The notes under the pieces were generated by a model, which worked only from the letters and a program-made list of their open reading frames with translations, was not told the origin of the DNA and searched no databases. From positions 1-64,000 of the forward strand of contig CACCZR010000002.1 of NCBI GenBank assembly GCA_902550555.1: 64,000 nucleotides of DNA. Reading direction: 5' to 3'. This DNA is from an uncultured SAR116 cluster alpha proteobacterium (lineage in GTDB: Bacteria; Pseudomonadota; Alphaproteobacteria; Puniceispirillales; Marisalimonadaceae). Shown here piece after piece: positions 47,130-58,767 of this stretch. Position numbers and translations under genes: made by a program. Numbering within the stretch: position 1 is the stretch's first letter; the number at the start of each line of letters is the position of its first letter.

Positions 47130-48884
47130 TTAATTGATTTTATTTGAAATCCAAACAGTTTGAAATGGATTAAGTTTTAAAACCTTTAAATCATTTAAAA
47201 TTACATTTGGTTCAAAAATGTCAAACCATAATTGGTTCTCAAATAAATTAATCTTACTTAATTTTAAATCTGTTGTAACTGATGAAATATTAGTAATTGC
47301 GAAGATATTTTGGCTTCTATCAATACTTTGTCTCCAAATACCAAATAATTTATTACCAAGGCTTAATGTGTATTGGGTAGCATTTGGATGAAAAGCTATT
47401 AATTTTTTCCTTAATGCGATCATTTGAAATATTTTTGAATGAATAAGATATTCAATAGAATTCTTATTTTTAATTTTTTTATTTAAATCATTTAAATTCC
47501 ATTTATGACGATTTATATTTCTTTTTATACCGGTATTTAAAAATTTATCATTATCATTGGAAGTACCAAATAATGAGTTAAAATAAATAGCCGGAACTCC
47601 TTCTAAAGCAAGTAAAATTGTATGAGCAGCTATATACCTTTCAATGGCATAAAAACCTTTTTTATCAAAGTCAGTTCTTTTTAATGCGTCAAATAAAGTA
47701 ATATTAATTTCATATACTTTATTTTTGGTTAAGACTTTTCTATATGAAAATTTTCCACCGTTTTTTTTCACTCTGGCAAATAATTTTTCTAAGATTCTTT
47801 CTCCAAGAATGCCTTCTGCTGGCCTCATTCCAATCCCGTCGTGTGAAGCAATAAAGTTAAGATATGCATTACCAACTTGCGCTGGTGGCATGCTTTTACT
47901 CCAACCTGAAATCTTAGAACTATCTTCAAATAAAAATGTATATAAAATTAGTGGAGGCAATGGAAAATTATAAATCCAATTTGCTTCATCCTTATTTCCA
48001 AAATAACTTAAATTTTCTTTTTTAGGTAAATTTGTTTCAGTAACAATTAATGCAGAGGGATTTACATAATTTATAATTAACCGTAATAACTTAACTATCT
48101 CATGTGTTTCTGTTAAATTAACACAAGTTGTAGCATGTTTTTTCCAAATAAATGCTACTGCATCTAATCTAAAAATTGTAATACCCTTACTTAATAGAAG
48201 AAAAATAATTTCAATAAATTGGATTAAAACAATAGGATCTTTAAAATTAAGATCAATTTGATCATGGCTAAATGTACACCATAAATCATTTTTATTTTTC
48301 TTGTCAGTATATAGTTGGATTAAATCATGGTCTCTTGGTCTTATCACTTTTGATACATCGAAATCTTTATCAATTGTAAAAAAAAAACTTCTATATTTAT
48401 CTTGTTGTTTTACAAATGATTTAAACCATTTACTTTTAATTGAAGCATGGTTCAAAATTAAGTCTGCCATTATATTTACGTGATTCGATAACAATCTTAT
48501 ATCATTCCAGGTCCCTAAATCCTTACTTACATTTTTATGATCTGTTACTGAAAACCCTCCATCACTACTAGATGGATAAAATGGCAATACATGTAATATT
48601 TCAAAGTAGTTTTTAAGATTTTTTTCAAAAAATTCTTTAAGAACTTTTAAAGGTGCTTTGTTCTTAACTTTTAAATTATCTCCATATGAAATTAATACTG
48701 TAGTTTTTTCAGAGACAGATATTGATTTTAATTTGTAATTCTTTTGAAATTTTTGTAATAAATCTAAAATTATTTCGGAGTAATGTTTTATACTAAATTC
48801 AACTTTCTCATCCCTATAAATAAATTTTAATTTTTCATTTATTAAATGATCTATTTTTTTAAAATTAGGCTTTATATTTTTCAT
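47130..48884 (-). CDS. GH13_18 sucrose/glucosylglycerate phosphorylase-like enzyme
   Basis: SYGDNLK, HVLPFYPSSSDGGFSVTDH, IFRLDAVAFIWKK, VTETN, NFIASHDGIGMRPAEG; adjacent to GpgS and GpgP. Confidence 0.87.
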   Translation of the reverse strand: MKNIKPNFKKIDHLINEKLKFIYRDEKVEFSIKHYSEIILDLLQKFQKNYKLKSISVSEKTTVLISYGDNLKVKNKAPLKVLKEFFEKNLKNYFEILHVLPFYPSSSDGGFSVTDHKNVSKDLGTWNDIRLLSNHVNIMADLILNHASIKSKWFKSFVKQQDKYRSFFFTIDKDFDVSKVIRPRDHDLIQLYTDKKNKNDLWCTFSHDQIDLNFKDPIVLIQFIEIIFLLLSKGITIFRLDAVAFIWKKHATTCVNLTETHEIVKLLRLIINYVNPSALIVTETNLPKKENLSYFGNKDEANWIYNFPLPPLILYTFLFEDSSKISGWSKSMPPAQVGNAYLNFIASHDGIGMRPAEGILGERILEKLFARVKKNGGKFSYRKVLTKNKVYEINITLFDALKRTDFDKKGFYAIERYIAAHTILLALEGVPAIYFNSLFGTSNDNDKFLNTGIKRNINRHKWNLNDLNKKIKNKNSIEYLIHSKIFQMIALRKKLIAFHPNATQYTLSLGNKLFGIWRQSIDRSQNIFAITNISSVTTDLKLSKINLFENQLWFDIFEPNVILNDLKVLKLNPFQTVWISNKIN

Positions 48885-50088
48885 TATCTAACTCAACCTT
48901 TTGCTTAAGCCTATTCATAAAGTTTGGAATTGCACTGTTAACTCTGCTCCAAGTGGGTATAAATGGAGTATCCATTGGATTTTCAAAAAAACTTTCCCCA
49001 GCTTTCATTATATTTAAAGCAAACAATTCAACAGCTTTTTCTTCCATATGAGAGTCATATTTGAGACCATTCATTAAAGCATCACTTCTGTAAATATCAA
49101 TCATGTCTAATGCAGTTCTATAATATGTTGCTTTTATTGAACGAAATGTTTCAAGACTAAAAGAGTTACCTTGAGTAGCTAATTTTTTTATTAAAGTTTT
49201 TATAATATCAATGGACATTTTAGATAAACCTTTTGTTTGGTCATCAATAGATAAATCTTGATGTTTATGATCATATGTATCAGCTAAATCAACTTGACAT
49301 ATCCTATTGGATGCTTGATTCCGGTACATCTCGGATAAAATCCCAATCTCTATTCCCCAATCACATGGAATTCTCATATCAGCCATTAAGTTTCTCCTAA
49401 AGGAAAACTCTCCAGCCAGTGGATATTTAAATGCTTTCATATAATCAAGATAATCGTTGTGACCAACAGTTTTTTCCATTGCCGTGAGAAGTGGTGTAAC
49501 TAATAATCTTGAAACTCTACCATTCATTTTGCCTTCTGCAACTCTTGGATAATAACCTTTACAGAATTCAAAATTAAATAGTGGATTTACAACTGGATAA
49601 AAAAGTTTAGCTAATAACCTTCTATCAAATGTTAATATATCACAATCATGAAAAGCTATGGATCTCGCCTCACCTCTAGCAATAGCCATACCTAAACAAT
49701 ACCAAACATTACGTCCTTTACCTAGCTCCTGAGGAGCTAAATTATAATTTTTTAACTCTTTATCTAATTTTAGAAGATTAGGACCATCATTCCATAAAAT
49801 AGTAAATGGACAATTTAATTTCTTAAAAAAGTTCCAAGCTTTCTTTGCTTGCTCTTCATTAGCCCTGTCTAGCCCTATGATTATATGATTTAAATAATTC
49901 GTTTTGCTAATTTCACTAACTATATTTGGTAATGCACTACCTTCTAATTCAGAATAGAGACAAGGAAGAATAAGTTCCATTTTTCTATCTTTAGAAAATT
50001 TTTTTAAATCGCGTTCTAAATCTTTCAATTTTCTGTTAGAAAAATCATGCAAAGTTGCAACTACACCATTTTGAGAAAATTCACTCAT
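48865..50088 (-). CDS. gpgS: glucosyl-3-phosphoglycerate synthase-like glycosyltransferase (GT81)
   Basis: ELILPCLYSELEG, GKGRNVWYCLGMAIARGEARSIAFHDCDILTFDRRLLAKL, DWGIEIGILSEMYRN. Confidence 0.85.
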   Translation of the reverse strand: MSEFSQNGVVATLHDFSNRKLKDLERDLKKFSKDRKMELILPCLYSELEGSALPNIVSEISKTNYLNHIIIGLDRANEEQAKKAWNFFKKLNCPFTILWNDGPNLLKLDKELKNYNLAPQELGKGRNVWYCLGMAIARGEARSIAFHDCDILTFDRRLLAKLFYPVVNPLFNFEFCKGYYPRVAEGKMNGRVSRLLVTPLLTAMEKTVGHNDYLDYMKAFKYPLAGEFSFRRNLMADMRIPCDWGIEIGILSEMYRNQASNRICQVDLADTYDHKHQDLSIDDQTKGLSKMSIDIIKTLIKKLATQGNSFSLETFRSIKATYYRTALDMIDIYRSDALMNGLKYDSHMEEKAVELFALNIMKAGESFFENPMDTPFIPTWSRVNSAIPNFMNRLKQKVELDNEKYKA

Positions 50089-50893
50089 TTACTTCTAACT
50101 TTTTTATAATATTTAAGGTTTTATTAACAACTTCAACCCAACCATCGGGAGCTTCTTTTTTTGAAACTACACATTGATTTTTAAAATTTATCTTTTTAAG
50201 AGGACCATTTTTTACTAAACATGGATAATCGCATTTATCTAACATATCAAAATCATTTTCATTATCACCTACACAAATTGAAACATAATTTTTTTTTGTT
50301 TCATTTGACAATAATGAGATGAATCTCATCATTGCATTACCTTTTGATACCCTATCTCCTAAACTAAGAACTCTTCCACCGAACTGGATGTTCAGTCCAT
50401 GTTTTTTTACGTTATTTTTTAATTCTACTTCCTCTTCTTTATTACCTGAAAAAATAAATGGCATTGAAAATTTTCTATTCATAGCTTTAGATATTTTATT
50501 TTTAGGTAAACCCAAAACCTCAATTTGATTTTGTAAAGTTTCATTTTCAAGAATTAAGCATTTTTTTTGAAGCTTAAAATTTATGTTATCTGAAAAGTTT
50601 TTAAAAATTGTTTCTTTATTTCTACTGAGACATATCTTTTCATTTAATTTTTTACTTAAATAATTTAACCCATGTATACAAGATCCATTTTCGCTAATAT
50701 AAACTTTCGGTATATCTAAATTTTCACATATTTCATCAAGCTCTAAATCTGTTTTACTACTATTTGGAATGATGTTAATACCTTTACTTATACAATTTTT
50801 GATGAGATTTAAAGCAGCTCTAAATTCAAAAGTTTTTTTATTTAACAAGGTACCGTCAAGATCTGTAAATAATAGAATATTATTAAAACTCAT
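50081..50893 (-). CDS. gpgP: HAD phosphatase, mannosyl/glucosyl-3-phosphoglycerate phosphatase-like
   Basis: LLFTDLDGTLLN; IIPNSSKTDLE; VGDNENDFDML; the track extends to 50914. Confidence 0.83.
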   Translation of the reverse strand: MSFNNILLFTDLDGTLLNKKTFEFRAALNLIKNCISKGINIIPNSSKTDLELDEICENLDIPKVYISENGSCIHGLNYLSKKLNEKICLSRNKETIFKNFSDNINFKLQKKCLILENETLQNQIEVLGLPKNKISKAMNRKFSMPFIFSGNKEEEVELKNNVKKHGLNIQFGGRVLSLGDRVSKGNAMMRFISLLSNETKKNYVSICVGDNENDFDMLDKCDYPCLVKNGPLKKINFKNQCVVSKKEAPDGWVEVVNKTLNIIKKLEVNE

Positions 50894-51038
50894 ATTTACC
50901 CTTTTAACAGACATTTAAAATAACAAAAGTATGTTTAATTGTAATTTTATTATTATTAAATTTTTGCTTAATAATTAAGTTTTTTAGATAAAATCTTAGT
51001 CTTATTCCTTCAAGAAGGAAATAATTATTACATCTAAT

Positions 51039-51428
51039 TCAATTTTTTGAAAGTTCATCAAGAATTGGACAATTAGGTTTGTCATCTCCATGACAATTCG
51101 AAGCTAAAAAACTAAGCTCATTTCTTAAATCTTTAAGATCTTTTAGTTTGCTATCAATTTGTGAGATTTTTTCTAAAGTTATCTTTTTAACTTCTTTGCT
51201 TGTTCTGTTTTTGTCTTCATACAGAGATAATAATTCTTTACATTCATCAATGCTGAAATCAAACTTTCTTGCCTTCCCAATAAATTTAAGTTTGGCTACT
51301 TCTTCATCAGTATACTCTCTATAACCTGAGGAAATATTTTGTTCAGGTTTAACTAAACCTATGTTTGCGTAATATCTTACAGTTTTAATCGTTAAATTTG
51401 ACAATTTAGCTGCTTTTCCAATATTCAT
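51039..51428 (-). CDS. cueR: MerR-family copper-responsive regulator CueR-like
   Basis: MNIGKAAKLSNLTIKTVRYYANIGLV; C-terminal CHGDDKPNCPIL matches the CueR Cys-x7-Cys loop. Confidence 0.9.
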   Translation of the reverse strand: MNIGKAAKLSNLTIKTVRYYANIGLVKPEQNISSGYREYTDEEVAKLKFIGKARKFDFSIDECKELLSLYEDKNRTSKEVKKITLEKISQIDSKLKDLKDLRNELSFLASNCHGDDKPNCPILDELSKN

Positions 51429-51441
51429 TATTTTTTCCTTT

Positions 51442-51462
51442 ACTCTACCCTGAGGGGAAAGT
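51442..51462 (+). promoter_or_regulatory. MerR/CueR-type operator within a 19-bp-spacer promoter
   Basis: ACTCTACCC-TGA-GGGGAAAGT dyad, within TTTACT-N19-TATATT, between divergent cueR and the DUF4396 gene. Confidence 0.65.
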
Positions 51463-51490
51463 ATATATTAATATCACTAATAGGAAAATA

Positions 51491-51934
51491 ATGTCAATCC
51501 AAAATACTTTATCGATAAATTGGTATTGCCATCATACTTGGCTTCAATCTTCAAAAAACACTTCATGGTGTTTGTTAGGTTGTTGTATTGGCGACTTTGG
51601 CACTATTGCTTTTTTTCAATTTACAGGAATTGCCTGGCCAGTTTTAGCAATCATGTCATTAGCAATTATAAACGGTATATTAACATCTATAGCACTTGAA
51701 ACTTATATACTTTCAAGACAAATGTCTTTCAATATAGCTTTCAAGACAGCTATAGGAATGTCACTCGTTTCAATGATTTCGATGGAAGTTGCGATGAATG
51801 TTACAGACGTCATTTTTACTGGAGGAGCTATCTTAACTTGGTGGGTTATACCTTTAATGCTGATAGCTGGATTTATAACGCCACTTCCATACAATTATTG
51901 GAGGCTTAAAGCCTTAGGAAAAGCATGCCATTAA
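51491..51934 (+). CDS. DUF4396 domain membrane protein
   Basis: MSLVSMISMEVAMNVTDVIFTGGAILTWWVIPLMLIAGFITPLPYNYWRLKALGKACH. Confidence 0.8.
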   Translation: MSIQNTLSINWYCHHTWLQSSKNTSWCLLGCCIGDFGTIAFFQFTGIAWPVLAIMSLAIINGILTSIALETYILSRQMSFNIAFKTAIGMSLVSMISMEVAMNVTDVIFTGGAILTWWVIPLMLIAGFITPLPYNYWRLKALGKACH

Positions 51935-52404
51935 TGTATTTTAAAAACAAATTTTTCATTATTTCAGTCTTGATTATACTACCGACATTATATTTTTTAG
52001 TCACTTACTCCAATAAGTCAAATGCTAGTATAAATTTAAATACAACTGATAATTCGGTAATAGAAAATGGTAAAAAAATTTATGCTGATAATTGCGCATC
52101 ATGTCATGGTGTTAACTTAGAAGGACAAAAAAACTGGATGTCACGATTACCTGATGGATTGATGCCAGCACCTCCTCATGACGAAACAGGTCACACATGG
52201 CATCACCCAGACAGGTATTTATTCATGGTTACCAAGTACGGAATTGAAGAATTCATTGGAGGAAATTATCCAAATAATATGCCTGCTTACAAAGATATAT
52301 TAAGCGATAAAGAAATTATTGCTGTACTTTCTTACATAAAGAGCACGTGGCCTTCAAAAATAAAAGAAATCCATAATAAAATCAATTCTAGATCAAAACG
52401 TTAA
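51925..52404 (+). CDS. membrane-anchored c-type cytochrome
   Basis: N-terminal TM; KKIYADNCASCHGVNLEG (CxxCH); late Met (NNMPAYKDILSDKEI). Confidence 0.92.
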   Translation: MPLMYFKNKFFIISVLIILPTLYFLVTYSNKSNASINLNTTDNSVIENGKKIYADNCASCHGVNLEGQKNWMSRLPDGLMPAPPHDETGHTWHHPDRYLFMVTKYGIEEFIGGNYPNNMPAYKDILSDKEIIAVLSYIKSTWPSKIKEIHNKINSRSKR

Positions 52405-52734
52405 ATTAAGGATCAACAGTGGAGTGAATTTAAAGTAACATATAGAAACTTACCTAATTTTTATCCAAATAATGGTTATTTCTTTACTAATACTTTTGAT
52501 ATTGAAACTGTGTCTCTTCATTAAATAATATCAATTCGACAAACCAAAACATACCGAATGTAATTATGGAATTTCATAATAAAAGTTGGTCAAATAAGCA
52601 AATAGTTACTTTCATAAACCTAAATTGGATTTAAAGAAGAAATAAGAAAAAAATTATTGAAGAGAATTTATATAGATTAAAGTAAAAAACTCAAAACTTT
52701 ATCTATAAGCAAGGTCTTTATTAAATAAATGATT

Positions 52735-53607
52735 TTAACCACCCATAGGTAAAGTCATCGAAGTGGTGAGAATACTAGTTAAGGATAAAATGAGTAATGC
52801 AATGAAAATTTCAATACGAATTGATTTTTTTAGTTGTATCGAGCCAATTGTAGGCTCGTTTTTTATTAATGGAACATTTTTAAATTTATTTAGAGCTCCA
52901 AATAAAAGTAGTAAAGAAACTAAAGACATTTTAATTAAAAATGCGTTACCATAAGAAGTGCTGAATAATAAACTAATGTCATTCATCAAAATATATGCAA
53001 ATAAACCTCCTGATATTATTAAAACAAACAAATAAAAAACAGCTAGAATACCAAATCTGTGGGCTATTACATGAAGATTACTTGTTTTAGCAGATGAGCA
53101 CATATTGTATAACGGGATAAAAGATCCAAGCCAAAACGCCACACAAATGAGATGAAATAATAGTAAAATCTGAGCCAAGATACCAGATTTTTGGGAATGA
53201 CCTGTATAAATAAATGATAAAAGGACAAAACCAATACCTAGCCACCCAAGAAACTTTAGAGAGGCTACCTTATGTCTTGTGCTAATTACAGTCAGTATAA
53301 AACCAATTAATGCAAAAATTGCTGCATATCCCGCCTTTGATGTTAAAGCAAGCTCTAAAATAATTGGGTCTAAAATACTCAAAAATTCTCCACCTAAATT
53401 ACCTGCTATGGAAAATATCATCCCAACTGATATTATAAGGCCGTACAAACAGCTCTTTTGAGATAAGAAGTTACAAAATTCCATGTTGTCTATTGTTTGA
53501 TATTTACTAAAATGAAGATCAAATAATTTTGTTCCAACTACTGCTAATCCAACTAAATAAAGTAGAACTTTCAAAACAGGAGTGAAAACCATCCATACAT
53601 CCATCAA
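52735..53607 (-). CDS. copD: CopD family copper resistance membrane protein
   Basis: Multi-TM; YTGHSQKSGILAQILLLFHLICVAFWLGSFIPLY. Confidence 0.87.
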   Translation of the reverse strand: MMDVWMVFTPVLKVLLYLVGLAVVGTKLFDLHFSKYQTIDNMEFCNFLSQKSCLYGLIISVGMIFSIAGNLGGEFLSILDPIILELALTSKAGYAAIFALIGFILTVISTRHKVASLKFLGWLGIGFVLLSFIYTGHSQKSGILAQILLLFHLICVAFWLGSFIPLYNMCSSAKTSNLHVIAHRFGILAVFYLFVLIISGGLFAYILMNDISLLFSTSYGNAFLIKMSLVSLLLLFGALNKFKNVPLIKNEPTIGSIQLKKSIRIEIFIALLILSLTSILTTSMTLPMGG

Positions 53608-55014
53608 CTAACTTTTCCTATAATTTGGTTTTACAGCTGTAAATTGAGTTGTTTTTATCTTAGGTTTTGAAGACATAAGCGGATTGCCTGAACCATTTAT
53701 TTTTGACATTTTTGGCAATTCTCCTTTATACTCATACGCCTGTTTACCTATGGGGTTTTTAAACCAGCCGGGATCAGTGTAATCACCTGAGGCTTGATCA
53801 GCTCTAACCTTTAGTATACTAAACATCCCTCCCATTTCAACAGAGCCATAAGGACCATTTCCTGTCATCATTGGGATTGTATTATCTGGTAATGGCATAG
53901 TCATTTCAGTCATATCAGCCATTCCTCGTTCACCCATAACCATATAATCTGGAACTAACTTCTTAATCTTTTCTGACACTCCTCTATGGTCAACACCAAT
54001 CATTGTAGGTACATTATGGCCCATAGCATTCATTGAATGATGGCTTTTGTGACAGTGCATTGCCCAGTCTCCTTCTTCGTCAGCAATAAACTCTATTTGC
54101 CTCATTTGGCCAACCGCTATATCACTAGTTACTTCTTTCCATCGACTCTCTGGTCGAGTTGGTCCACCGTCTGTACCTGTTACCTCAAACTCTATTCCAT
54201 GGACGTGTATAGGATGGTTTGTCATTGTTAAGTTTCCAATTCTTACTCTAACACGGTCATTTTTTCTTGCTATAAGGGGTGAAATTCCAGGAAAAATTCT
54301 GCTGTTCCAAGCCCATAAATTGAAATCAAGCATAGTCATTATTTTTGGTGTCTCTGAGCCAGGGACAATATCAAATGCATTTAGTAATATACAATAGTCT
54401 CTATCTACTTTGCTAATCCAGGGATGTTCTTTTTTTGGATGAGTAACCCAAAATCCCATCATACCCATTGCCATTTGAGTCATTTCGTCAGCATGAGGAT
54501 GGTACATAAAGGTTCCTGGTCGTTTTGCTTCAAACTCATATACGAAGGTTTTACCAGGACTTACAGCTAACTGGTTAAGCCCCGCTACTCCATCCATTCC
54601 ATTTGGTAGCCTTTGGCCGTGCCAATGAATACTTGTGTGTTCTGGTAATTTATTTGTAAGGAAAATTCTAACTTTATCACCCTCAACAACTTCAATTGTA
54701 GGGCCAGGACTTTGACCATTATATCCCCAAAGATTAGCATTCATTCCAGGTGCTAGTTCACGAACAACAGGTTCAGCAATTAAATGAAACTCTTTAAAGT
54801 TACCGTTCATTCTGTAAGGCAATGTCCAACCATTAAGTGTGACGACAGGATTGTACTCGGATGTTCCCTTCGACTGATTTGGACTGATTGTGTCTGCAGA
54901 TGTTTGTATGACTGGCTCGGGTAGCCCTGCGAGTGACGAGGTGGCAACCGATGCACCAGCTATTGCTGTGCCTGCTAATGCTGACATCTTTATAAATTCG
55001 CGTCTTGATTTCAT
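53608..55014 (-). CDS. multicopper oxidase (Tat-exported)
   Basis: SRREFIKMSAL Tat signal; HWHGQRLPNGMDG, HPHADE, HPIHVHG, HCHKSHHSMNAMGH Cu motifs. Confidence 0.94.
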   Translation of the reverse strand: MKSRREFIKMSALAGTAIAGASVATSSLAGLPEPVIQTSADTISPNQSKGTSEYNPVVTLNGWTLPYRMNGNFKEFHLIAEPVVRELAPGMNANLWGYNGQSPGPTIEVVEGDKVRIFLTNKLPEHTSIHWHGQRLPNGMDGVAGLNQLAVSPGKTFVYEFEAKRPGTFMYHPHADEMTQMAMGMMGFWVTHPKKEHPWISKVDRDYCILLNAFDIVPGSETPKIMTMLDFNLWAWNSRIFPGISPLIARKNDRVRVRIGNLTMTNHPIHVHGIEFEVTGTDGGPTRPESRWKEVTSDIAVGQMRQIEFIADEEGDWAMHCHKSHHSMNAMGHNVPTMIGVDHRGVSEKIKKLVPDYMVMGERGMADMTEMTMPLPDNTIPMMTGNGPYGSVEMGGMFSILKVRADQASGDYTDPGWFKNPIGKQAYEYKGELPKMSKINGSGNPLMSSKPKIKTTQFTAVKPNYRKS

Positions 55015-55045
55015 TTAAGTCTCCATTTTTTAATATTAACTCTCA

Positions 55046-56446
55046 CTAATGCCCTTTTTTGGCTTTATTAGAGGCAATCTCTGTAGTTCTTGATTTTGCT
55101 CCTAATTTTCTTCCTACAGCAACGCTATTTAAGTTTAGTTCTTCAGTAAATAAGTTTTGTAATGCGTCTATAGCTTTTATCTCAGCTGTTGATTTCTCAA
55201 GCCCAATTTGCATCAACTCAAATATTCCAATTATCATTCCATTGTAATTATAAGTTGCTTCTTCTAAGAGTATTTCATGCATTGGAATAATTTGATCATA
55301 ATAATGCTTTGCGATATCAAAGGCTGTCCTATATTTTTGATAAGCCTCACGAAATTCAGAGGCTGCAGCTATTACAGTATTCTCATAAATTTTTTGCTTA
55401 GCAATTAGATTTGCTTGAATTGTATCTCTTTGAAGATCACCCCAATCGAAGATTGGAATTTTAATTTCAAGTTCATAGCCTTTTTTATTTGAGATAACTC
55501 CATCATCTTTTATTCTATCATTTCTATATCCAAGTTCGATATCTGTGTAAGAATTAATTTTTTCAACTCCTAACTGTTCCAATAACAACTCATATTCAAT
55601 ACGAGCAGTTTTTACGTCAAATCTGTCACTAATCTTATTAGCAATGTTCTCTATTGATATTGGTGCTTTTGGTAATTCTGGTAATTTTTTAGGTATAATT
55701 AAATTTTTAGATTCATTCTCTGTTAGACCTATTTTACGTATTAAGTTTTCACTACTAGATATTTTTCTCATTTTCGCTTTAGCAAGTGCTATAGTAGCCT
55801 CTGAATAGATTAATTGTTGACGAACTCTATCACTAGTTGTCATATTACCAGTTTTTTTCATTCGTTTAGCAAGTTCAGCATTTGCAGAAAAAGCAATAAA
55901 GGCATTATTATATAGAGTTAGTTGTTGTTCTGAAGCAACTGCTTCAAGCCAAGACATTCTTACATCATTAATTGCCCCAAAAATTTCAGAGGCAAAATTT
56001 ATATCATTCAAATCAATAGCAAGTTTTGAGGATTTTTGTTTAGTTGGAAGTGTGAGCAAATCAAGAAGTCCAAAACTTAAAAACCTACCATATTCTATTT
56101 CAGAACCCTTAACCATTCGTTCCAACGAAAATACTGGATTAGAAATCCTTCCCTCTTGAGCAGCAGCTGATCCACTCCCGCGATATTTGAATAAAAGGGA
56201 TTGAAAACTAGGACTTTTGGAAAGCATTAATTCTACAGCTTCTTTTTCACCAACTTCTGAATTTAGAAGCGCTTTTGAATTATTAAATAATTCATTTTGT
56301 TGTTCCTGGTTAATAGCTGCAGTTATTTTACCAGCAATAACTATATCTTTGTTGTTATTAATGTCATTTAAACTTTCATCAAATTTATAAGACGTACAAC
56401 TAGACATTATAAATATATAGGCAAAATAAAAAATTCTCAATTTCAT
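55046..56446 (-). CDS. TolC/CusC-like outer-membrane efflux lipoprotein
   Basis: Lipobox-like MKLRIFYFAYIFIMSSCTSY; paired efflux-protein coiled-coil pattern. Start moved to 56446 because the track's 57-codon extension overlaps another ORF. Confidence 0.83.
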   Translation of the reverse strand: MKLRIFYFAYIFIMSSCTSYKFDESLNDINNNKDIVIAGKITAAINQEQQNELFNNSKALLNSEVGEKEAVELMLSKSPSFQSLLFKYRGSGSAAAQEGRISNPVFSLERMVKGSEIEYGRFLSFGLLDLLTLPTKQKSSKLAIDLNDINFASEIFGAINDVRMSWLEAVASEQQLTLYNNAFIAFSANAELAKRMKKTGNMTTSDRVRQQLIYSEATIALAKAKMRKISSSENLIRKIGLTENESKNLIIPKKLPELPKAPISIENIANKISDRFDVKTARIEYELLLEQLGVEKINSYTDIELGYRNDRIKDDGVISNKKGYELEIKIPIFDWGDLQRDTIQANLIAKQKIYENTVIAAASEFREAYQKYRTAFDIAKHYYDQIIPMHEILLEEATYNYNGMIIGIFELMQIGLEKSTAEIKAIDALQNLFTEELNLNSVAVGRKLGAKSRTTEIASNKAKKGH

Positions 56447-56453
56447 TGCTAAC

Positions 56454-56774
56454 CTATTTTTTCTCCTCGCTTTTTTCACGAGAGTAATATTGCCAACCTC
56501 CAATCTCATCGACAGTTTTATTTGAAATAATCCAGTCTGATGTGTCCTCCCATTCCCATTTTTCATAAGATTCAAAAATTGATTTATATATATTTTTATT
56601 TGTTGAATTCTCTTCACTTTTAGCGGCTACTGAAAACGAAATAGTTCCGGCAATCATTAAGAAAACCAAGGCTTTGAAAATGAATAAGAAATTTTGAAAA
56701 TTAAAATAGTAAGTTGACATAAAAATCATAATTTTAGAATTAGTATTTGTAGTTGTTTCTTTTTTTATACTCAT
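56454..56774 (-). CDS. small exported hypothetical protein in the copper operon
   Basis: TM/signal segment (FLFIFKALVFLMIAGTISFSVAAKSEE) then an acidic Trp-rich tail (YEKWEWEDTSDWIISNKTVDEIGGWQYYS). Confidence 0.65.
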   Translation of the reverse strand: MSIKKETTTNTNSKIMIFMSTYYFNFQNFLFIFKALVFLMIAGTISFSVAAKSEENSTNKNIYKSIFESYEKWEWEDTSDWIISNKTVDEIGGWQYYSREKSEEKK

Positions 56775-56788
56775 ATTTTATAAGTCAT

Positions 56789-57418
56789 CTATTTTGCTTC
56801 AATTTTAATAAGTTCTAACTTTTTATTCACTTGAAACGTAACATTGTCTCCTCTTTTAAAGTTTGAAATTACTTTTTTGTCTGAAACATTAAATTCCATT
56901 GTCATTGCTGGCATTAACTCTCCTAATGGTCCATGTTTTATCGTTATTTTTGTCCCTCTTATGCGTTTAACTTTACCATCACCCATCAACAATTTTACAT
57001 CAGCGCCTGACATGTCTGAACCCTTGGGTGACACCTCAAATATAAACTCTCCCTTAATAGCGTGACCATCTTCACTTAGTGCGCGCCATGCTGTTTTATA
57101 AATACCATCATCTAATTCAGGTAGACTTATAATATGTTGTCTTGATTCCTTCATAAGATGATCCTTATTTAATTTTATTGGAGTTAAGGCTTCATTCCCA
57201 AGCAATCCACTAATTAATGACTTTTTTTGGTTTGATGAAACTTTCGAAAACTCAACTTTAATCAGTTTTGCCGGTGCAGTAAAAACAATTTCCATTTTTT
57301 CTGGGGCCTTTTTGATTATAGACCCATCTTTTGGTACTACAAAACCTACTGGCGAATGAGCTGTAGCAGTTGAGAAATTTAACACTAAACTTAATATACA
57401 GATTACAAATGTCTTCAT
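56789..57418 (-). CDS. CopC-CusF fusion periplasmic copper-binding protein
   Basis: Signal peptide then AHSPVGFVVPKDG and DGHAIKGEF (CopC), then GKVKRIRGTKITIKHGPLGELMPAMTMEFNV (CusF-like). ATG at 57418 or 57448. Confidence 0.85.
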   Translation of the reverse strand: MKTFVICILSLVLNFSTATAHSPVGFVVPKDGSIIKKAPEKMEIVFTAPAKLIKVEFSKVSSNQKKSLISGLLGNEALTPIKLNKDHLMKESRQHIISLPELDDGIYKTAWRALSEDGHAIKGEFIFEVSPKGSDMSGADVKLLMGDGKVKRIRGTKITIKHGPLGELMPAMTMEFNVSDKKVISNFKRGDNVTFQVNKKLELIKIEAK

Positions 57419-57489
57419 TTTATATTTGCTCCAATTTTTAAAACTCATGAGAATTTAGATTGTAAATAATGAATATATAAATTATATAA

Positions 57490-57510
57490 GCTTTACCCTT
57501 AGGGGAAGGT
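57490..57510 (-). promoter_or_regulatory. MerR/CueR-type operator upstream of the minus-strand copper operon
   Basis: GCTTTACCC-TTA-GGGGAAGGT dyad; minus strand TTGACC-N19-TATATA; core shared with the 51442 site. Confidence 0.65.
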
Positions 57511-57906
57511 CAAGCTTATTTTTTAATTTTATATAATTTTAAATAGATTTCTCATTTTCCAATTGTCTTTGTTTTCCAATCACTTTTTCACATCTAGTTT
57601 TTACAGATATACCTTTATGTGGTATGTAGCTCTTCAAATTGAAATTTATACGTTTTAGAAACTTCAATACATTTTTTGTAAATTTTTGTTGGAACTCTTA
57701 TCTCATATGCAGAGGAAACCTTACTTAGACCCATTATTTCTAAAATAACTAAAACAAATTCGTTCATTTATTAAAATTTTATAATTACCAATTTAAATTT
57801 ACCATTTTTGTTTTACTTTTAACCAGCATACTAACAACTTCACTTGCAACACCCTTAGGTATATAATTGCTATTTTTGAAATGATTAATTATAATTGGAA
57901 ACAATT

Positions 57907-58767
57907 ATGAATGTTAAAAATTTTTTTGATAAAGATACTTCAACACTTAGTTATGTTGTTTTTGACAAAATAACAAAAGACTGCCTTGTAATTGATCCAG
58001 TTTTAAATTTTGACCTTGAAGAATCTACATTTTCGACAAAATCAATTGATCAAGTTTATAAATTCATAAAAAAAAATAATTTTAATCTTCATATGATTCT
58101 GGAAACTCACGCACATGCTGATCATTTGTCAGGTGCACAATTCATGAAAGATAAATTTCCAAAATCAAAACTTGCTATAGGTGAAAATATAAAATCCGTA
58201 CAAAAAACTTTCAAACATATATTCAATTTTAAAAACTTTAATGAAAATGGATTACAATTTGATTTATTGTTGAAAGATAATTCAGTTTGTTCAGTTGGTC
58301 CATTTAAAATAAAAACTCTCTTTACACCCGGGCATACTCCTGCTTGCGTATCATATCTTATAAATGAAAAAATAATTTTTACAGGTGATGTTTTACTTAT
58401 GCATGACTTTGGAACTGGAAGATGCGATTTTCCAGGGGGGAGCTCCGGACAAATGTATAATTCAATTAAAAATAAATTGTACACATTACCAGATAATGTA
58501 AAGGTATTTGTTGGCCATGACTATATGCCTGATGGTAGAAAATTGGAGTATAAGTCAACTATTGGTATTCAAAAAAAACTTAATCCACATATCAATTCTA
58601 CAACTAAAAAAAAACAATTTATAAAAAACAGAGATAATAGAGACAAAACTTTAAAATCTCCTCGTCTTCTTTTACAAAGTTTACAAGTAAATATTGATGC
58701 TGGTAAATTACCTGTGAAGGAACAAAACAAGCAAAGATATTTAAAAATACCAATCAATCAAAAGTAA
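57907..58767 (+). CDS. metallo-beta-lactamase fold protein (persulfide dioxygenase/Blh-like)
   Basis: ETHAHADHLSGAQF, TPGHTPACVSY, FTGDVLLMHDFGTGRCDFPGGSS, VFVGHDY; ATG at 57907. Confidence 0.92.
   Translation: MNVKNFFDKDTSTLSYVVFDKITKDCLVIDPVLNFDLEESTFSTKSIDQVYKFIKKNNFNLHMILETHAHADHLSGAQFMKDKFPKSKLAIGENIKSVQKTFKHIFNFKNFNENGLQFDLLLKDNSVCSVGPFKIKTLFTPGHTPACVSYLINEKIIFTGDVLLMHDFGTGRCDFPGGSSGQMYNSIKNKLYTLPDNVKVFVGHDYMPDGRKLEYKSTIGIQKKLNPHINSTTKKKQFIKNRDNRDKTLKSPRLLLQSLQVNIDAGKLPVKEQNKQRYLKIPINQK

Follow-up and report, generated by a model that had tools for sequence, protein, structure and literature searches.

The window, the whole 64,000-nucleotide stretch of DNA analysed here from an uncultured SAR116 alphaproteobacterium, contains eight copper-related genes that lie together. 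The cueR gene (51039-51428, minus strand) encodes a Cu(I)-responsive activator of the MerR family, which scores as a TIGR02044 equivalog (156 bits against a cut-off of 147) and in which inspection of the sequence revealed the C-x7-C loop CHGDDKPNC. On the plus strand, the gene for a DUF4396 protein (51491-51934; PF14342, E=9e-35; 120.5 bits against a gathering cut-off of 27, covering model positions 1-141 of 141) is followed by a c-type cytochrome gene (51925-52404; PF00034) that overlaps its 3' end. The other five genes occupy the minus strand and encode CopD (52735-53607; PF05425, E=3e-17), a Tat-exported two-domain multicopper oxidase (MCO) with a Met-rich C-terminal extension (53608-55014), a TolC/CusC-type outer-membrane channel lipoprotein (55046-56446; PF02321), a small exported protein of an unnamed family linked to tolC, here called the GGW protein (56454-56774), and a CopC-CusF fusion (56789-57448; PF04234 (CopC), E=4e-12; PF11604 (CusF), E=8e-16). 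No pump gene is found within the island.

All eight genes listed by the first-pass annotation were recovered, and the CopC-CusF fusion is real. The open reading frame of the TolC-like protein spans 55046-56617 on the minus strand, and its true start, MKLRIFY..., is at 56446, 7 bases past the end of the small ORF, so the small gene is a separate one. The small ORF can be considered real because it is kept upstream of tolC in 86 of the 93 related loci. Beside cueR, at 47130-50914, three further genes are kept in sister genomes; by eye they are a GH13 phosphorylase-like gene, a glycosyltransferase and a HAD phosphatase, and look like a glucosylglycerate-type compatible solute pathway.

Promoters and composite origin of the island

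Two CueR-type promoters were identified. P1 (51439-51469, plus strand; TTTACT-19 bp-TATATT) precedes the DUF4396 gene and has its dyad at 51442-51462, and P2 (57483-57513, minus strand; TTGACC-19 bp-TATATA) precedes the operon that starts with copC-cusF and has its dyad at 57490-57510. A dyad within a 19-bp spacer is a hallmark of activation by MerR-family regulators, and with a CueR equivalog and such dyads at both promoters the locus has the make-up of a Cue-like regulon. The pattern ACYYTMCCCTRAGGGKAAAGY has exactly two matches in the window, at 51442 and 57490, with 0.00 expected in shuffled sequences; because the pattern was written from those two sites, this figure attests to their similarity and rarity and not to a prediction made beforehand, and the relatives serve as the independent check. 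Elsewhere in the order, the same dyad stands in front of DUF4396 in further genera and families (families f1, f2 and f4), and the P2 dyad is kept in genomes of genera g1 and g2, in g2 even without an adjacent cueR.

Compared with the sister locus L237, the window is colinear up to 52418, where the sister has a native copC-copD. The segment at 52419-57793 (minus strand), which holds copC-cusF, the small gene, tolC, mco and copD, is replaced relative to sister genomes. It ends at a scar (57794-57868), a remnant of about 76 bp of the 3' end of the native copD (blastn to L237 4137-4212, 88%, and to L238 and L239), and long colinearity with L237 is back from 58760. Between g1 and g2, identity at four-fold sites is mostly 77-88% for the operon versus 38-44% for the native DUF4396 and cytochrome c genes; over all comparisons with distant carriers, the operon values range from 70 to 96%. 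The break in colinearity and the high four-fold-site identity together indicate that the operon was exchanged horizontally, replacing the native copC-copD. Judged from these comparisons, the island is a composite of a native cueR/DUF4396-cytochrome c locus and an acquired copC-cusF/small gene/tolC/MCO/copD operon, and not a single unit.

Two neighbouring stretches were also noted. The non-coding stretch between the cytochrome c gene and copD (52405-52734) is about 88-90% conserved in L031 and L033 and mostly missing in L032. A metallo-beta-lactamase-fold gene (57895-58767) separates the operon from the flank in which colinearity resumes; it is absent from L237, and genes like it are also found near DUF4396 in L192 and L199.

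Copper pumps and DUF4396 across genomes

The lack of the usual pump, first remarked for the island, holds for the genome and for the family. The source genome (1.6 Mb, 69% complete) gave no match to PF00122, the E1-E2 domain of P-type ATPases, in a search that was positive in 14/14 control genomes, and none to TIGR01511. It has two RND genes, on contigs C1 and C29, both below the cut-off of TIGR00914 and both with an adjacent adaptor (MFP) gene and without a channel gene. A CopA or CusAB operon elsewhere in this genome had been considered, and the profile searches found neither. We extended the survey to 61 genomes of relatives, 37 of them from the same family. None of these 37, several of which are more than 90% complete, has a P-type ATPase above the Pfam cut-off, and none of the 61 has a heavy-metal RND (CusA-type, TIGR00914) above cut-off. 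Because the pumps are absent from the family genomes too, their absence is not merely an assembly gap; it is a trait of the clade and not a quirk of the island. P-type ATPases above cut-off occur in three genomes of another family of the order; by eye they are CcoI/FixI-like, measure about 720-740 aa in the complete copies and carry a short MHCAGC motif at the N-terminal end. Two weak PF00122 matches in family genomes were inspected and proved to be a phytase-like and a transporter-like ORF, not ATPases.

Of 398 proteobacterial genomes sampled, 377 have a P1B ATPase, and as a means of copper export these enzymes are close to universal. SAR11, another group of abundant ocean bacteria, has been reported to be without copA (PMC4771312), and SAR116 is also without CopA here.

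The DUF4396 protein is found in 23 of 24 near-complete genomes of the order. It is predicted to have four transmembrane helices (TM), and its charges predict both termini to be cytosolic (N-in/C-in). Its invariant residues include C27, C31, M90, M95, M98, E99, M102, M123, C146 and H147; those of TM3 gave a helix-face statistic of p=0.09, which is suggestive only. The predicted model (pLDDT 82.7) matched no solved or viral fold in a fold search, and none that pointed to a transporter. In the literature searched, no paper addressed the function of DUF4396, which received one passing mention.

The genomic context of DUF4396 points to copper. Outside the order, too, genes that score above cut-off as CueR equivalogs are found in divergent orientation next to DUF4396 (families f28, f64 and f69), and in family f29 a gene for a CsoR-type repressor takes this position, together with a cupredoxin. 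Of 46 main-type DUF4396 loci, 24 have copper genes nearby, as against none of 20 control stretches taken from these genomes; about half of the main-type loci are without a copper gene nearby. Among 289 alphaproteobacterial genomes, 20 of the 25 main-type DUF4396 carriers lack any P1B ATPase, compared with 62 of the 264 others. Fisher's test gives p=3e-8 for this comparison, ignoring phylogeny, and a family-stratified exact test, in which the family of one unlisted genome was inferred, gives p=0.03; neither amounts to a full phylogenetic test, and the single-cell genomes in the survey are incomplete. In f90, f92, f28 and f31, a DUF4396 carrier is without the ATPase that its relatives have, while f19 gives a mixed picture and DUF4396 and the ATPase occur together in f58 and f69; at the genome level, both were found in G102, G213, G292, G301 and G336. 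The whole family PF14342 may be copper-linked. A distant DUF4396 subtype was seen near the same oxidase type at L206 (genome G164), where it adjoins oxidase and TolC genes, and at L208 (genome G186), where a P-type ATPase gene is nearby. Genome G010 holds a second, degraded DUF4396 copy (L240 4801-5028).

The same context could fit a copper-induced factor that delivers copper or assembles cuproenzymes, for example cytochrome oxidase or the neighbouring cytochrome c and oxidase, and exports nothing. The overlap with the cytochrome c gene and the cytochrome c genes near DUF4396 in several families speak for such a role, as does the lack of CcoI/CtpA-type suppliers in most CopA-less genomes of the order, which would need a periplasmic copper route anyway. 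However, CueR and CsoR-type regulators, under which DUF4396 would stand, respond to excess cytosolic copper, and DUF4396 shows its exclusion pattern with the P1B ATPases as a whole; we therefore regard a pure assembly role as rather unlikely. Export of Cu(I) by DUF4396 in place of CopA is the reading that we prefer, with residue pattern, topology and genomic context suggesting both the transport and its direction.

DUF4396 is also encoded on 13 IMG/VR contigs. Several of the phage genes adjoin those for tail tube, clamp loader, thymidylate synthase, PhoH, DNA ligase or head protease, and on the marine T4-like phage contigs of loci L241-L256 (for example, L243:4998-5420, L249:3657-4076 and L253:1994-2413) DUF4396 sits between typical phage genes. 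Named phage records (INPHARED) and PHROGs yielded none, the phage copies coming from IMG/VR only. Phage DUF4396 is possibly a copper-related auxiliary gene.

The GGW-TolC-MCO module

The oxidase consists of two cupredoxin domains, of which only domain 2 holds a T1 site, as defined for type B two-domain multicopper oxidases, a class described as trimeric (PMC13151041). Its motifs are HWHG (130), HPH (172), HPIHVHG (267) and HCHKSHH (320), with no Cys in the domain-1 motif, and it matches the two-domain laccases 2zwn and 3g5w (PDB) over the full length; membership in the family would make it a homotrimer. Oxidases 99% identical to it occur at named loci of SAR116 single cells. In nearly all of its relatives at 69-85% identity, which come from beta-, gamma- and other alphaproteobacteria, the oxidase gene is immediately preceded by tolC, and tolC by the small gene. 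A profile search with the small protein in 368 genomes gave 18 independent matches, all 18 of which adjoin a related tolC. The gene association seen in the window is kept in relatives, and the GGW-TolC-MCO module is met repeatedly in alpha-, beta- and gammaproteobacteria, on plasmids as well as in the chromosome. At four loci upstream of the oxidase (L093, L096, L106, L110), the small GGW motif is fused to the N-terminus of a shortened TolC-like protein of about 320-390 aa; given this shortening, some of these proteins may form no full channel.

In the GGW protein, for which Pfam has no family, S65, W81, N85, G92, G93, W94 and Y97 are invariant in the alignment, which contains no conserved Cys, His or Met. 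A metal-binding role was therefore rejected for the core, and copper binding by the protein is improbable; a His-rich tail is present in many copies from betaproteobacteria and missing from those of SAR116. Because it tracks tolC in every match and occurs in four TolC fusions, it is better read as a partner of TolC and the MCO. The first-pass annotation had proposed both DUF4396 and the small protein as uncharacterised copper-handling components: regulators and copper neighbours link the former to copper, and the residue conservation speaks against the latter as a copper binder. It had also left the TolC-like protein without a visible partner, a role that we assign to the small protein and the two-domain oxidase, a conserved pair that is not a pump.

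The lipobox Cys of the TolC-like protein is invariant in 42 homologues. Its model is a complete CusC/OprM-type protomer, with the four strands and long paired helices of an outer-membrane factor, and a Foldseek search returned OprM, CusC and SilC (E about 1e-12). Such a protomer, and the two RND operons without an adjacent outer-membrane factor, would suit an exit duct for a pump encoded elsewhere, such as the MFP-RND pair on C1 or C29. We find this doubtful, since neither RND reaches the heavy-metal family cut-off and the channel gene is always accompanied by those for the small protein and the oxidase, not by an RND gene. The MCO, TolC and GGW proteins would instead act as one oxidation-and-exit unit.

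Genetic data exist for Acidovorax citrulli, in which the more tolerant of two strains withstands copper less well when cueO (Aave_1810) or tolC (Aave_1811) is deleted, and deletion of tolC had no effect in the second strain (PMC11052375). The cueO primers encode TNHPIH and CHKSHH and fit Acidovorax loci of the window oxidase family, from which the predicted product has the same length, 187 bp. The primers, together with the adjoining locus numbers, suggest that Aave_1810 and Aave_1811 belong to the GGW-TolC-MCO module.

A proposed copper route and its relation to known systems

We propose that the island is a CueR-controlled copper-detoxification regulon in a clade that lost or never had CopA and CusA, with DUF4396 standing in for CopA; we put this at about one in two. 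Cytosolic Cu(I) would activate CueR, and P1 and P2 would fire. From P1, DUF4396 and cytochrome c would be made; the Cys/His ends of DUF4396, which lie in the cytosol, and its CxxxC motif would capture Cu(I), and the invariant Met/Glu face of TM3 would guide the ion into the periplasm, so that the protein would fulfil the task of CopA although it has no ATPase domain. P2 would supply CopC-CusF, the two-domain oxidase, the CusC-like channel, the GGW partner and CopD. CopC-CusF would be the periplasmic copper carrier, the oxidase would convert Cu(I) to Cu(II), and the exit side of the unit would consist of the CusC-like channel in the outer membrane and the small GGW protein. Maturation of CutO depends on CopA (PMC8456105), which we count in favour of this proposal.

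A purely periplasmic defence without cytosolic copper export, CopA having been lost because oligotrophic cells rarely face copper, would agree with the reported loss of copA in SAR11 (PMC4771312) and an island rich in periplasmic proteins, but appears improbable, as CueR, which senses Cu(I) in the cytosol, has been kept and would govern a protein of the inner membrane, and as the pattern extends to genomes of 2.8-3.5 Mb (G042, G276), so that genome reduction alone does not explain it.

With its regulator, operators, residue pattern and phage-borne copies, DUF4396 is a specific and testable candidate for copper export. More tentatively, DUF4396 might be the first member of a new family of ATP-independent Cu(I) exporters that replaced CopA in abundant marine alphaproteobacteria (SAR116 as seen here, SAR11-like bacteria probably) and are carried by their T4-like phages, accompanied by a pump-free oxidase-channel, composed of a trimeric two-domain oxidase, the GGW protein and a trimer of TolC type, that would oxidise copper and let it out.

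Several known systems share parts of this arrangement. Like the E. coli Cue system (CueR-CopA-CueO), the island has a CueR activator, promoters with 19-bp spacers and a Tat-exported multicopper oxidase as target; unlike Cue, it is without CopA, has DUF4396 beside cueR instead, and encodes a two-domain oxidase where that of Cue has three domains. With E. coli Cus (CusCFBA) it shares a CusC-like channel lipoprotein and a CusF domain, but the island has no CusA or CusB, nothing in the clade exceeds the cut-off of that pump family, the CusF domain is joined to CopC, and the GGW protein and the oxidase accompany the channel. As in copABCD/pcoABCD, CopC, CopD and a copper oxidase are encoded in one operon, whereas the island has a TolC-like channel for CopB, a two-domain oxidase, and CueR in place of a two-component system. 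In cutFOG of Rhodobacter capsulatus, a small exported protein is likewise encoded beside a copper oxidase. CutF-like proteins are marked by a CxxxC motif and a C-terminal PP (PMC8456105); the GGW protein, whose alignment has no conserved Cys, possesses neither such a motif nor a Pro-rich end, and it associates with TolC. The betaproteobacterial TolC-MCO clusters, represented by Aave_1811/Aave_1810 of A. citrulli, whose published study identified neither the small gene nor the module as such (PMC11052375), differ from the island in that A. citrulli has CopA and Cus-like pumps elsewhere in its genome, and resemble it in combining an oxidase of the same family with an adjacent TolC.
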